Of a stretch of 24,358 nt of DNA, positions 6,399-23,388 are shown in pieces. The notes beneath the pieces were generated by a model. The model saw nothing but the letters and a program-made list of their open reading frames with translations, was not told the DNA's origin and did not search any database. The stretch's first letter is position 1. Each line of letters opens with the position of its first letter. The translations under genes and the position numbers were made by a program. This DNA comes from a virus: positions 1 to 24,358 of IMG/VR virus record IMGVR_UViG_3300009172_000056. The stretch is one strand, 5' to 3'.

Positions 6399-6430
6399 TT
6401 AGATATCGGTTAAAGCAACCTTTAAACTTA

Positions 6431-6461
6431 AAGAGGAGTTCTTCGGAGCTCCTCTTTTTTT
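6431..6461 (+). terminator. Strong intrinsic terminator after gene 23
   Basis: GAGGAGTTC (6433-6441) pairs with GAGCTCCTC (6446-6454), with one G-U pair, around a C(UUCG)G tetraloop. Flanking AA/TT can extend the stem, and seven Ts follow at 6455-6461. It is the clearest rho-independent terminator in the window and fits the end of the highly expressed capsid transcript. Confidence 0.92.
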
Positions 6462-6465
6462 GCGT

Positions 6466-17072: not shown

Positions 17073-17151
17073 TTGCGGTGGAGATCGCAAGTCATAACCT
17101 AACCTAAAGTCCTACCGTTGAGCGTCATAACTTAACGGTAGGCAACTTTTT
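17073..17151 (+). terminator. Terminator and repeated motif after cobS
   Basis: CCTACCGTT at 17111-17119 pairs perfectly with AACGGTAGG at 17134-17142 (9 bp, 14-base loop) and CAACTTTTT follows, a credible terminator. Upstream, TTGCG (17073-17077) can pair with CGCAA (17086-17090). A 13-base motif GTCATAAC(C/T)TAAC occurs at 17091 and again at 17124 inside the loop and right arm, so the spacer may hold a structured RNA or a duplicated terminator remnant. Confidence 0.6.
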
Positions 17152-20629: not shown

Positions 20630-20637
20630 TATAAATA
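20630..20637 (+). promoter_or_regulatory. Late promoter abutting the Ntn-hydrolase gene
   Basis: TATAAATA starts 4 bases after the regA stop and lies 7 bases from the ATG at 20645. No Shine-Dalgarno sequence is present, so the message would be leaderless or have only a base or two. Confidence 0.75.
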
Positions 20638-20644
20638 GATTTAT

Positions 20645-21577
20645 ATGTGTGTAGTAGCTGTAAAAAGGTTAAAAAACCATGGTTGGATCGGGATTAAAAA
20701 TCGCGATAGGAATTACCAAACTGAAGTTGACATTGTACAAAACAATCGCGAAGGAATACAGCGCTTATATATCGATGACAAATTGAGTCGTTGGACAGAA
20801 GGATTAAACGAGTATGGTGTCTGCGTTTTATCAGCATCTTTGTCAGTAAAGAGTGATGAAAAAGAAGGTGATAAAATTACTAACCAACGATCAGCTCGTA
20901 GGAATGCTGATGGTTATTATTCTCCTGACGGTAAAGCTATTCGTAAAGCGCTTTTAGAAAAAACTCCTGAAGCTGCAGCTAAAATTTTAATCGCTCATGA
21001 ACTTTCAGGATGTACTTATGTCTTCAATGAAAAAGATTGTTATTTAATTGAAGGAGGTTTTTTAGTACGTAAAGAAGATGCTACTAAAGACAACCCTCGA
21101 AAGTTTATTCACAAATTGGTTAAACTCAAAGATGATGAAATTTCCGTAAGAACAAATCATGGTGTACTAATTCCAGAACTTGGTTATATGGAAGATCCTG
21201 AAGATGATAAATTAAAATATGCTCGAAAAAGTTCTGAAATGCGTTATAAGTATGCAACAGAATTTATGAAGCCTGACTTTAAATTAGCAACAGACGCGAT
21301 TGACGCTTTAGCACAAACGCCAGATAAAGATATTTTCATGAATCCTATTCGTACAGGTGATACTAAAAAGGCTGAGATGGTTACAACAGGGCAATTACTT
21401 TTAACACCAAAAGATAGAACACTTCACTATAGACCAATTTATTCTTCAGTCGCATTTAAATACGATAAATTAAATGGGCCAGAAGCCAAAACCTTTTTTG
21501 AAATAATTTCATCGCGAAAGCTTTTATCGTTTAAAGAATATAACACATTCTCAAAAAGTGTAAGAGTAATCGTATAA
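20645..21577 (+). CDS. Ntn-hydrolase family enzyme (NRDE / C45 / choloylglycine-hydrolase-like)
   Basis: A 310-residue protein beginning MCVVAVKR, so removal of Met would expose a catalytic Cys, the mark of N-terminal-nucleophile hydrolases. NRDRNY with Asp21 and Arg22 stands at the spacing of the conserved Asp in penicillin-acylase/bile-salt-hydrolase relatives. WTEGLNEYGVCVLSASL (about 56-72) matches their GxNExGL motif, and SVRTNHGVLIPELGY (about 168-182) supplies a conserved Asn-His. Such enzymes cleave amide bonds of varied small molecules; here the substrate is unknown. It belongs to the accessory block between regA and 43, with a late promoter 7 bases before the ATG. A precise family cannot be fixed by eye; a class II glutaminase is less likely, lacking a partner domain. 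Confidence 0.72.
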   Translation: MCVVAVKRLKNHGWIGIKNRDRNYQTEVDIVQNNREGIQRLYIDDKLSRWTEGLNEYGVCVLSASLSVKSDEKEGDKITNQRSARRNADGYYSPDGKAIRKALLEKTPEAAAKILIAHELSGCTYVFNEKDCYLIEGGFLVRKEDATKDNPRKFIHKLVKLKDDEISVRTNHGVLIPELGYMEDPEDDKLKYARKSSEMRYKYATEFMKPDFKLATDAIDALAQTPDKDIFMNPIRTGDTKKAEMVTTGQLLLTPKDRTLHYRPIYSSVAFKYDKLNGPEAKTFFEIISSRKLLSFKEYNTFSKSVRVIV

Positions 21578-21580
21578 ATA
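21573..21580 (+). promoter_or_regulatory. Late promoter for hsp20
   Basis: TATAAATA overlaps the stop codon of the Ntn-hydrolase gene. Unlike other late boxes here it is 85 bases from its gene, giving the longest leader in the window. Confidence 0.7.
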
Positions 21581-21665: not shown

Positions 21666-22103
21666 ATGACAAATACATACACATGGCCAGGCCAATCCTG
21701 GACAATCGGTTTCGATACTATGTTTGATAGTATCGAAAAACTACAATCACAACAACAAGGTTATCCACCTCACAATGTTGTGAATCACGGCGAAGACAAA
21801 TACGAAATTGCTCTTGCTGTCGCGGGCTTCAACGAAAAAGATTTATTCGTTGAGCAAGAAGAAAACGTTCTCACAATCGCATCTAAGGATGTAGATCTGA
21901 ACGGTAATAAAGAATACATCCATAAGGGTATTGCAACACGCAAATTCAAAAGAAAATTCACATTAAGTGAATATGTTGAAGTTGAATCTGTTGCACTTGT
22001 TGATGGTATTCTATCTGTCTATCTGGTAAAAAATATTCCAGAAGAAAAGAAGCCTAAAACTTTCACGATTGGCGCTGAGACACCTCAGTTCCTTTCTGAA
22101 TAA
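21666..22103 (+). CDS. Small heat shock protein Hsp20 (alpha-crystallin)
   Basis: A 145-residue protein with a central alpha-crystallin domain: PPHNVVNHGEDKYEIALAVAGFNEKDLFVEQEENVLTIAS (about 35-74), then FKRKFTLSEYVEVESVALVDGILSVYLVKNIPEEKKPKTFTI. It lacks the exact C-terminal I-x-I motif but has FTIGAETP near the end. Such holdase chaperones keep unfolded proteins soluble. Phage versions are common in marine T4-like viruses and are thought to aid assembly or host stress survival. The gene has a late promoter, a long structured leader and the best ribosome binding site in the window, suggesting high late expression. A perfect 11-bp inverted repeat lies in codons 15-25. Confidence 0.93.
   Translation: MTNTYTWPGQSWTIGFDTMFDSIEKLQSQQQGYPPHNVVNHGEDKYEIALAVAGFNEKDLFVEQEENVLTIASKDVDLNGNKEYIHKGIATRKFKRKFTLSEYVEVESVALVDGILSVYLVKNIPEEKKPKTFTIGAETPQFLSE
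21710..21738 (+). repeat. Perfect inverted repeat inside hsp20
   Basis: TTTCGATACTA (21710-21720) is exactly complementary to TAGTATCGAAA (21728-21738) across a 7-base loop, in the codons just before the crystallin domain. Such a long perfect stem within coding sequence is unlikely by chance and could affect translation or mRNA stability, or bind a dimeric protein. Confidence 0.8.
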
Positions 22104-22117
22104 CAAAAAACAAACTA

Positions 22118-22149
22118 GACATGGCGTCGTGCATTCGCGGCGTCATGTC
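22118..22149 (+). other. Long 14-bp hairpin between hsp20 and the outer membrane gene
   Basis: The left arm GACATGGCGTCGTG (22118-22131) pairs along its whole length with the right arm at 22136-22149, with three G-U pairs and no mismatch, around a CATT loop. It is much more G+C-rich than its surroundings. No T-run follows, so it may be a rho-independent-like roadblock, an RNA stability element or a processing site rather than a standard terminator. Confidence 0.7.
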
Positions 22150-22168: not shown

Positions 22169-22870
22169 ATGAATAAAAAAACAATCATTAAATACATCGT
22201 AGGTGCAGTAGTACTTTACGTTGCATACTCATTCTTCTTCGGTGCTAAAGCCGAAGCCCAAGAAGTCGCAAAGACTTGGGAGGTTCAAGGCGAAGTGGGG
22301 CAATATGAAAAACGTATTGACACTGGTGCTTATACCGGAGATGATGCAGCATTCGTAAAACTAAGCACAGACTTAGGTGTTATCGGAGGCCTATCACTTG
22401 TAGGTGATCTTGAATATGTCAACACTGATGACTATCAGGTTTATGCAACTGTTGGCACTGAACTTAACACCTTTATTGGTGTGCTCGGTGTTTATGGCGA
22501 ATATTCAACTGGGGCTGTTGAAGCTGGCGAAGGCTTGTTTGAAGTTGGAGCAGCTTATGGTCTAAACCTTTTTGGTTTGGACACAGTAGTTGCAGCATCA
22601 GCAAATGAAGATAGCGCATATAGTGCAGAACTCTCAAGCGAGTATGCTCTATATTCTGGTAAAGCCTTTGCGCTTTCTATTGGAGCAGCGTATGGTCAAA
22701 CATTTGAAACACAAGCTGATTACGATTACACTCTTGGATTTGCTCGTATTTCTACGACAGGTCCAGTATCAGTATTCGTAACTGTTAACTATCTTAATAG
22801 CGATGCTGTTAATGGTACTGATGGAGTTTGGGAAGCTACTACCGATTTTGGTGTAGCATTCAGCTTCTAA
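22169..22870 (+). CDS. Secreted beta-barrel outer membrane protein
   Basis: A 233-residue protein starting MNKKTIIKYIVGAVVLYVAYSFFF with a classic signal peptide: basic n-region, hydrophobic core, and a cleavage site near AKAEA followed by QEV. The mature part is rich in alternating polar/hydrophobic strands with Gly, Tyr, Val and Ser, and ends TTDFGVAFSF. That terminal Phe with alternating hydrophobics matches the beta-signal recognised by the host BAM machinery. The protein should therefore sit in the outer membrane as a barrel of roughly 10-12 strands. The start at 22169 is chosen over the in-frame ATG at 22121 because the latter lies inside the hairpin and would put 16 polar residues before the signal peptide. 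It has no close promoter; it probably shares the hsp20 transcript. Receptor masking, superinfection exclusion or nutrient/solute uptake are possible roles, but none is shown. Confidence 0.75.
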   Translation: MNKKTIIKYIVGAVVLYVAYSFFFGAKAEAQEVAKTWEVQGEVGQYEKRIDTGAYTGDDAAFVKLSTDLGVIGGLSLVGDLEYVNTDDYQVYATVGTELNTFIGVLGVYGEYSTGAVEAGEGLFEVGAAYGLNLFGLDTVVAASANEDSAYSAELSSEYALYSGKAFALSIGAAYGQTFETQADYDYTLGFARISTTGPVSVFVTVNYLNSDAVNGTDGVWEATTDFGVAFSF

Positions 22871-22877
22871 TTTAAAG

Positions 22878-22917
22878 GTCTTTCCCTCTTTCGCCTAAAG
22901 TAAAGGGGACTTTTTTT
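22878..22917 (+). terminator. Terminator after the outer membrane protein gene
   Basis: GTC-ttt-CCCT (22878-22887) can pair with AGGGGAC at 22904-22910, with an inner CTTT/AAAG stem, and a run of seven Ts follows (22911-22917). The last T belongs to the next late box, so the terminator and promoter overlap. Confidence 0.6.
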
Positions 22918-22924
22918 ATAAATA
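22917..22924 (+). promoter_or_regulatory. Late promoter abutting the ADP-ribosyltransferase-like gene
   Basis: TATAAATA followed by GATAC and the ATG at 22930 (5-base gap). There is no ribosome binding site. Late expression fits a protein meant to be packaged into heads. Confidence 0.78.
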
Positions 22925-22929
22925 GATAC

Positions 22930-23388
22930 ATGCAATCATTCAGTGAGTACTTACTTGAAGCAAAAGGGAAAAAACTTTTCATTGAAGGTTGGCACGGTAC
23001 ACGTAAACCTTTTAAGCCACCATTCAAAGAAACATTGCAGGGAAGTGAAAACGATGATGGCTTTTCAGGTAAAGGCTTTTATTTTTTCGGCAATGAAGAA
23101 GACGTTAAGTTTGCAGTGCCTAAAGGTTACAAACAGAAGTTTGAAATTAAACTAAAGAACGCATACAATTTAGATAAAGACGACATCTTCTCAAAAGATA
23201 CAGATTTGCCATTTGGGCAATACCGAGATGAGGAAACCTTGCGTTTGCTGAAAGAAGGTTACGACGGAGCTTACCGCACAATGAATGGAAAACTTGAAGA
23301 ATTGTGTGTGTTTTCTTTTAAGAAAGAAGGCTTTGACGGCAATAAGAAGATTAAAACTATAAAAGGAGAAGATTGGGAAAAAATATAG
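22930..23388 (+). CDS. Small ADP-ribosyltransferase-like protein with capsid-targeting leader
   Basis: A 152-residue protein. The first eleven residues, MQSFSEYLLEA, resemble the capsid-targeting leader of T4 internal proteins (MKTYQEFIAEA) and end in an L-x-E site (Glu10) for the gp21 protease. The rest fits the ART domain seen in polyvalent and toxin proteins. WHGT with His22 comes first, then GFSGKGFYFF with Tyr51, an FEIKLKNAYNL strand, GYDGAY at 110-115, and EELCVF with Glu124 as the likely catalytic acid (an H-Y-E style triad). Such enzymes transfer ADP-ribose from NAD to protein or nucleic acid. T4 injects the ART Alt in a similar way, but that protein is far larger and not recognisably alike. 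Promoter overlap and lateness support a virion-packaged effector. Function is inferred from motifs only. Confidence 0.68.
   Translation: MQSFSEYLLEAKGKKLFIEGWHGTRKPFKPPFKETLQGSENDDGFSGKGFYFFGNEEDVKFAVPKGYKQKFEIKLKNAYNLDKDDIFSKDTDLPFGQYRDEETLRLLKEGYDGAYRTMNGKLEELCVFSFKKEGFDGNKKIKTIKGEDWEKI

Follow-up and report, generated by a model that had tools for sequence, protein, structure and literature searches.

Phage-encoded outer-membrane proteins of known role come mostly from temperate phages. Lambda Lom and the PA-2 porin, for example, are barrels that act in lysogens, the former 8-stranded and Ail-like and the latter 16-stranded and of the OmpC type. The KdgM/NanC porins (PF06178; 4FQE, 2WJQ, and 8XUA) are 12-stranded barrels with basic lumens. 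In T4-like phages, the closest described protein is an exported, 223-aa predicted barrel with a terminal Phe from Aeromonas phages of the Straboviridae (phrog_21698), represented by phiAS5 E1A206, which we equated with ORF0252 from its length and sequence features, and by Aeh1 ORF120c. The phiAS5 gene occurs in 14 Aeromonas phage records and is annotated as hypothetical. Pelagi- and methylophages also encode the CsgG/CsgF curli pore (PMC9004378).

We analyzed 24,358 nucleotides (the window) of IMG/VR record IMGVR_UViG_3300009172_000056, in which an open reading frame at positions 22169 to 22870 very probably encodes an outer-membrane barrel. The predicted barrel matches the KdgM/NanC porins in size and strand number, but its lumen is acidic. 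Unlike Lom and the PA-2 porin, it has 12 strands and occurs in T4-like phages, and no sequence relation to either protein was found. CsgGF is likewise an outer-membrane pore in related marine T4-like phages but is a multimeric lipoprotein of a different fold and family. The Aeromonas phage gene has different neighbors and adjoins a NAMPT-like gene.

Genomic setting and distribution of the barrel gene

The window represents 24.4 kb of an uncultured T4-like phage, with the gene order gp19, gp20, gp21, scaffold, gp23, UvsY, UvsW, gp55, gp47, gp46, peptidase, CobS, gp45, gp44, gp62, RegA, hsp20, the barrel gene, an unknown, and gp43; several of these genes were named by synteny with HTVC008M. The presence of gp23, gp20, UvsY, gp44/62, RegA, and gp43 around the barrel gene bears out the T4-like assignment made in the initial annotation. 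The nearest capsid proteins (52 to 53%) belong to phage C48C1, Methylophilales phage Melnitz, and Pelagibacter phage HTVC008M. The host bacteria are probably marine, and a Gram-negative host is implied by the barrel protein itself and by these nearest isolates. Rfam and tRNA scans of the window returned nothing.

The barrel gene lies on the plus strand and comprises 233 codons plus a stop (233 aa; Table 1). The program-made reading frame opens farther upstream, at ATG 22121. Because conservation in an alignment of 19 relatives begins at MNKK (22169), and because ATG 22121 sits within a 14-bp hairpin, we conclude that 22169, the start given originally, is correct. Values of dN/dS between 0.07 and 0.22 across eight pairs of family members indicate purifying selection and therefore a real, selected gene.

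Table 1. Features at and around the barrel gene (window coordinates)
Feature	Position	Strand	Description	Basis
Late promoter TATAAATA upstream of hsp20	21573..21580	+	Probable promoter of the hsp20-barrel unit	
hsp20-type small heat-shock protein	21666..22103	+	Upstream neighbor	Matches phage Hsp20 genes by tblastn, 42-46% identity
14-bp hairpin between hsp20 and barrel gene	22118..22149	+	-23 kcal/mol, z -6.3; strongest in window	
Sec signal peptide, 30 aa	22169..22258	+	Predicted signal peptidase I cut AEA/QE	Sequence and 19-member alignment
Barrel gene, mature part	22259..22867	+	203 aa; predicted 12-stranded outer-membrane beta-barrel, acidic lumen	AlphaFold2, VIA-align superposition, charge counts
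EKRIDTGAYTGD, predicted extracellular hairpin of strands 1-2	22307..22342	+	Most conserved exposed tip	Column entropy 0.85 vs 1.28 mature mean
FGVAFSF, last strand and C-terminal beta-signal	22847..22867	+		Terminal F in 19/19 members
Possible weak terminator after barrel gene	22874..22914	+	Stem then T7; -9.1 kcal/mol but z 0.0	
Next late promoter TATAAATA	22917..22924	+	Start of unit after barrel gene	

Scans of IMG/VR recovered about 20 distinct barrel loci, and in the databases searched, relatives were found solely in uncultured T4-like contigs or viruses. In the window clade (the window, L003, L006, L009, L018, and L019), hsp20 lies directly upstream of the barrel gene; in L019, whose contig was read further, gp43 lies downstream. 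A related group (L047 to L052) has a different upstream gene. In the loci read from a second clade (L021 to L024, L031, L038, L054, L056, and L059), the barrel gene follows or is close to nrdA-nrdB. The gene has thus been retained in lineages of quite different gene order. Contigs of both clades encode gp23, and between the second clade and the window the capsid proteins are 31 to 32% identical and the barrel proteins about 40%, suggesting that the gene either is ancient among T4-like phages or has been transferred from one lineage to another. A cyanophage origin was rejected, as no psbA-type gene was present in eight related contigs, which may be fragments.

Several other genes were recorded. 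The L031 contig (G001), which belongs to a 185-kb T4-like relative and contains the barrel gene as well, encodes a CsgG homologue at 60573 to 61220. In a record labeled Pseudomonas phage Y7 (unverified; L037, OQ572409.1, 5187 to 5636), the hsp20 is bacterial and the readable genes look bacterial-chromosomal, and the record is probably not phage. Directly after a perfect late promoter, positions 22930 to 23388 of the window encode a 152-aa protein with no match in Pfam or PHROG. Its N terminus (MQSFSEYLLEA/K) resembles the T4 capsid-targeting sequence cut by gp21, and by eye WHGT...GFSGKGFYF...EELCVF resembles an ADP-ribosyltransferase core; the product may be Alt-like and be injected along with the DNA. 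A 310-aa protein at 20645 to 21577, with a late promoter at 20630 and no Pfam match, starts MCVV and has RNRDRNYQ-like and GLNEYGVCVLSAS motifs; by eye it looks like an Ntn-hydrolase (C45/C59-like) with Cys2 as the nucleophile.

Export signals, predicted fold, and relationships

By inspection, the N terminus has a K-rich start (MNKK to K8), a hydrophobic stretch at residues 9 to 24, and then GAKAEA/QE. A30, at position -1, is invariant in 19 relatives, with a small residue at -3, and every one of the 19 members ends in Phe, in agreement with the signal peptide and terminal FGVAFSF beta-signal recognized in the initial annotation. The body of the window protein contains 28 aromatic residues, and Cys is absent. 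Strand-type hydrophobic alternation exceeded that of shuffled sequences in five members (P = 0.003 to 0.02). The features of the BAM class are present, namely, a Sec signal peptide, an even strand number (12), and a C-terminal aromatic beta-signal. In relatives, Cys residues occur close to where the hydrophobic core ends, which raised the possibility of a lipoprotein; we rejected this reading because positions -3 to -1 are inconsistent with a lipobox and because Cys is absent from the window protein.

AlphaFold2, given 19 sequences, predicted 12 strands from residue 38 to residue 232 (mean pLDDT, 81.7; pTM, 0.71), the low-confidence regions being chiefly the signal peptide and the vicinity of residues 111 to 120. 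When the L031 protein (40% identical) was modeled separately with the same sequences as input, 12 strands were again predicted. Among the solved structures compared, the best superposition of the window model was on KdgM (4FQE; Z = 18.1, 2.2 Å, 164 residues), where it runs from the first to the last strand of the closed barrel; KdgM was again the top match for the L031 model (Z = 17.6, 2.5 Å, 167 residues). Among the next matches were further closed small diffusion channels; for the window and L031 models, respectively, Z scores were 17.3 and 16.1 with VhGalP, 17.2 and 16.3 with PcoB, and 16.4 and 15.2 with NanC. OMPLA, LpxR, and autotransporter barrels, which have the same strand number as the window model, also matched (Z = 13 to 15). 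Based on the signal peptide, the barrel, and the terminal Phe, we infer an outer-membrane location. The initial proposal of an exported barrel is thereby supported, with fold and strand number as predicted by the two models and with T4-like neighbors around the gene.

The KdgM/NanC porins share only ~10% sequence identity with the window family in superposition, and a scan of 12 members at E values up to 5 gave no match to PF06178, while the NanC control matched at 1.2e-28; the KdgM architecture is therefore shared but the family is not. Consistent with this, hhalign gave a probability of 0.4% for an alignment with NanC. We accordingly rejected membership in the KdgM family, both for want of a sequence match and for the acidic lumen. 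Membership in Ail/Lom/OmpX was rejected because there are 12 strands, not 8, and no match to the Ail/Lom Pfam family.

When lumen and lipid faces are assigned from the hydropathy alternation of the strands, the lumen of the window protein has 14 D/E and 3 K/R, and it is also acidic in members of two other groups. The mature window protein has 29 D/E and 6 K/R (26 and 25 in NanC), and in each of the 19 members, acidic residues outnumber basic ones in the mature part. Conserved polar lumenal residues are E42, K64, E82, E125, N133, R193, and N207, although conservation of the lumen did not significantly exceed that of the lipid face (P = 0.19). The tips predicted to be extracellular are short and show no diversification (entropy, 1.31, versus a mature mean of 1.28), and the most conserved of them carries the motif EKRI.TG.

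The initial annotation knew of no T4 counterpart. This is true of T4 itself, but the Aeromonas T4-like phages phiAS5 and Aeh1 encode a structurally similar predicted barrel. In structural comparisons with viral proteins, the phiAS5 barrel ranked first or second and was the best named match (E = 2e-6, TM about 0.6, about 10 to 12% identity in the structural alignment). An hhalign comparison with the phrog_21698 family gave a probability of 56%, over residues 1 to 55 only (the signal peptide and first strand), and none of 12 window-family members scanned matched phrog_21698.

Using tblastn, we found no relative of the barrel protein in 50,697 phage records or 72,556 plasmids, and a search of the phage records with the L031 relative found nothing. 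PHROGs and Pfam yielded nothing significant for the family, NCBIfam yielded chance-level matches only, and PDB sequences yielded one chance match. The C48C1 gene at the equivalent place, between hsp20 and gp43, is unrelated. Two pattern-seeded scans of 84,980 GTDB species genomes, which could miss a distant donor, found no bacterial relative, so that descent from a bacterial porin, as initially supposed, is unsupported by sequence despite the KdgM-like fold. A literature search on phage-encoded porins found nothing on point. Within the libraries searched, the family has no named member and appears to be undescribed.

Transcription signals

The window contains 10 exact matches to the T4-type late promoter TATAAATA, every one on the plus strand, compared with 2.25 expected. 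Two of these flank hsp20 and the barrel gene, which therefore appear to belong to one late unit. Most of the other window-clade sequences have a late promoter 571 to 612 bases upstream of the barrel gene, and in several window-clade and related loci, another lies 732 to 753 bases downstream of its ATG. The hairpin between the two genes is a candidate hsp20 terminator or transcript 5'-end/processing element. Nearly all window-clade loci have a hairpin at the equivalent place (weak in L019 and L052), mostly of different sequence, with a T run after several of them, as in an hsp20 terminator. Because no late promoter directly follows this hairpin, expression of the barrel gene may depend on read-through or on processing. 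Strong hairpins also follow gp19, gp23, and CobS (1081 to 1118, 6427 to 6465, and 17107 to 17150). Those after gp19 and gp23 are directly followed by TATAAATA, an arrangement of modular terminator-promoter units.

All eight loci of the second clade carry TTGA-N16/17-TATAAT, the -10 box being separated from the barrel ATG by exactly 8 nt, an arrangement that suggests transcription by a host-type RNA polymerase from a nearly leaderless start. Similar sigma-70-type arrangements precede several other open reading frames of these phages. In L022, L024, L031, L038, and L059, the recurrent form TTG-N19..23-TATAAT-N4..11-ATG apparently marks leaderless or near-leaderless sigma-70-type promoters in one T4-like lineage. 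The initial annotation placed the barrel late in infection. That fits the window gene, which lies downstream of a late promoter with hsp20 between, but the distant-clade promoter points to early or host-RNA-polymerase expression. Timing may differ between clades, and thus we did not build lateness into the functional explanation.

Candidate functions

We propose, with a probability of about 0.4, that the protein serves as a narrow diffusion channel. During infection, the phage would produce a precursor that is exported through the Sec pathway, loses its signal peptide when signal peptidase I cleaves after AEA, and is built by the BAM complex of the host into a monomeric 12-stranded barrel of about KdgM/NanC size. 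With its acidic, cation-preferring lumen, the channel would alter the outer-membrane permeability of the infected cell and could admit small cationic solutes, for example, during phage production. We infer with uncertainty that the barrel conducts, that it prefers cations, and that the phage benefits. Three features favor a channel: the most similar folds belong to small channels, polar residues of the lumen are conserved, and the exposed tips, which are short, have not diversified. Among the roles raised initially (superinfection block, altered permeability, and release), the anatomy of the protein mildly favors permeability. A 12-stranded fold alone is no proof of conduction, as OMPLA, LpxR, and autotransporter barrels share it, and the conserved lumenal residues of opposite charge could pair as salt bridges and plug the barrel shut. 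No substrate, transporter partner, or AMG-type neighbor was found for the barrel gene. More specifically, a dedicated cation-preferring channel might provide a nutrient-poor infected cell with small cationic solutes during virion production, an idea that we consider rather unlikely. If true, this would be an auxiliary gene acting at the outer membrane and not in metabolism.

The main rival to the channel is superinfection exclusion or receptor masking, possible if somewhat doubtful, in which the phage barrel covers or displaces a receptor or binds tail fibers. Early expression, as the sigma-70-type promoter at the ATG in 8 of 8 distant-clade loci would allow, suits such a role, as does the strong conservation of the exposed EKRI.TG hairpin, and the authors of the Melnitz study have postulated that a phage-encoded S-layer protein acts in this way in a related marine phage (PMC9004378). 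However, the exposed tips are short, conserved, and undiversified across deeply split phage lineages, which argues mildly against a receptor-directed role because an arms race with receptors would be expected to diversify them, and the sole recognizable promoter of the window clade is late. It is improbable that the barrel is instead a release factor that weakens or permeabilizes the outer membrane late, as a lysis step. The window-clade gene does lie downstream of a late promoter, a CsgG homologue occurs in the 185-kb relative, and curli pores have been proposed to regulate lysis in Melnitz (PMC9004378). Yet the sigma-70-type promoters of the other clade do not suit a lysis gene, and no recognized lysis genes adjoin the barrel gene in the window or the loci read. 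Furthermore, small closed barrels have no known membrane-disrupting action. Very improbable are a virion or tail-associated protein, which would fit a T4-like phage gene near a late promoter but not the signal peptide, lipid-facing hydrophobic alternation, and terminal Phe of all members or the conservation across lineages with quite different gene order, and a 12-stranded outer-membrane enzyme such as OMPLA (phospholipase) or LpxR (lipid A deacylase), which have the same strand number and superpose at Z of about 13 but for which the family alignment offers no conserved catalytic His, Ser, or Cys and no Ser/His/Asp-type set, the window protein having no His at all.

The barrel protein is small and should refold easily, making channel, receptor block, and lysis aid directly testable against one another. 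Purifying selection maintains this sequence-orphan barrel, with its 12 predicted strands, in several T4-like lineages that have diverged deeply, suggesting that virulent phages profit from remodeling the outer membrane of a cell that they will soon kill.
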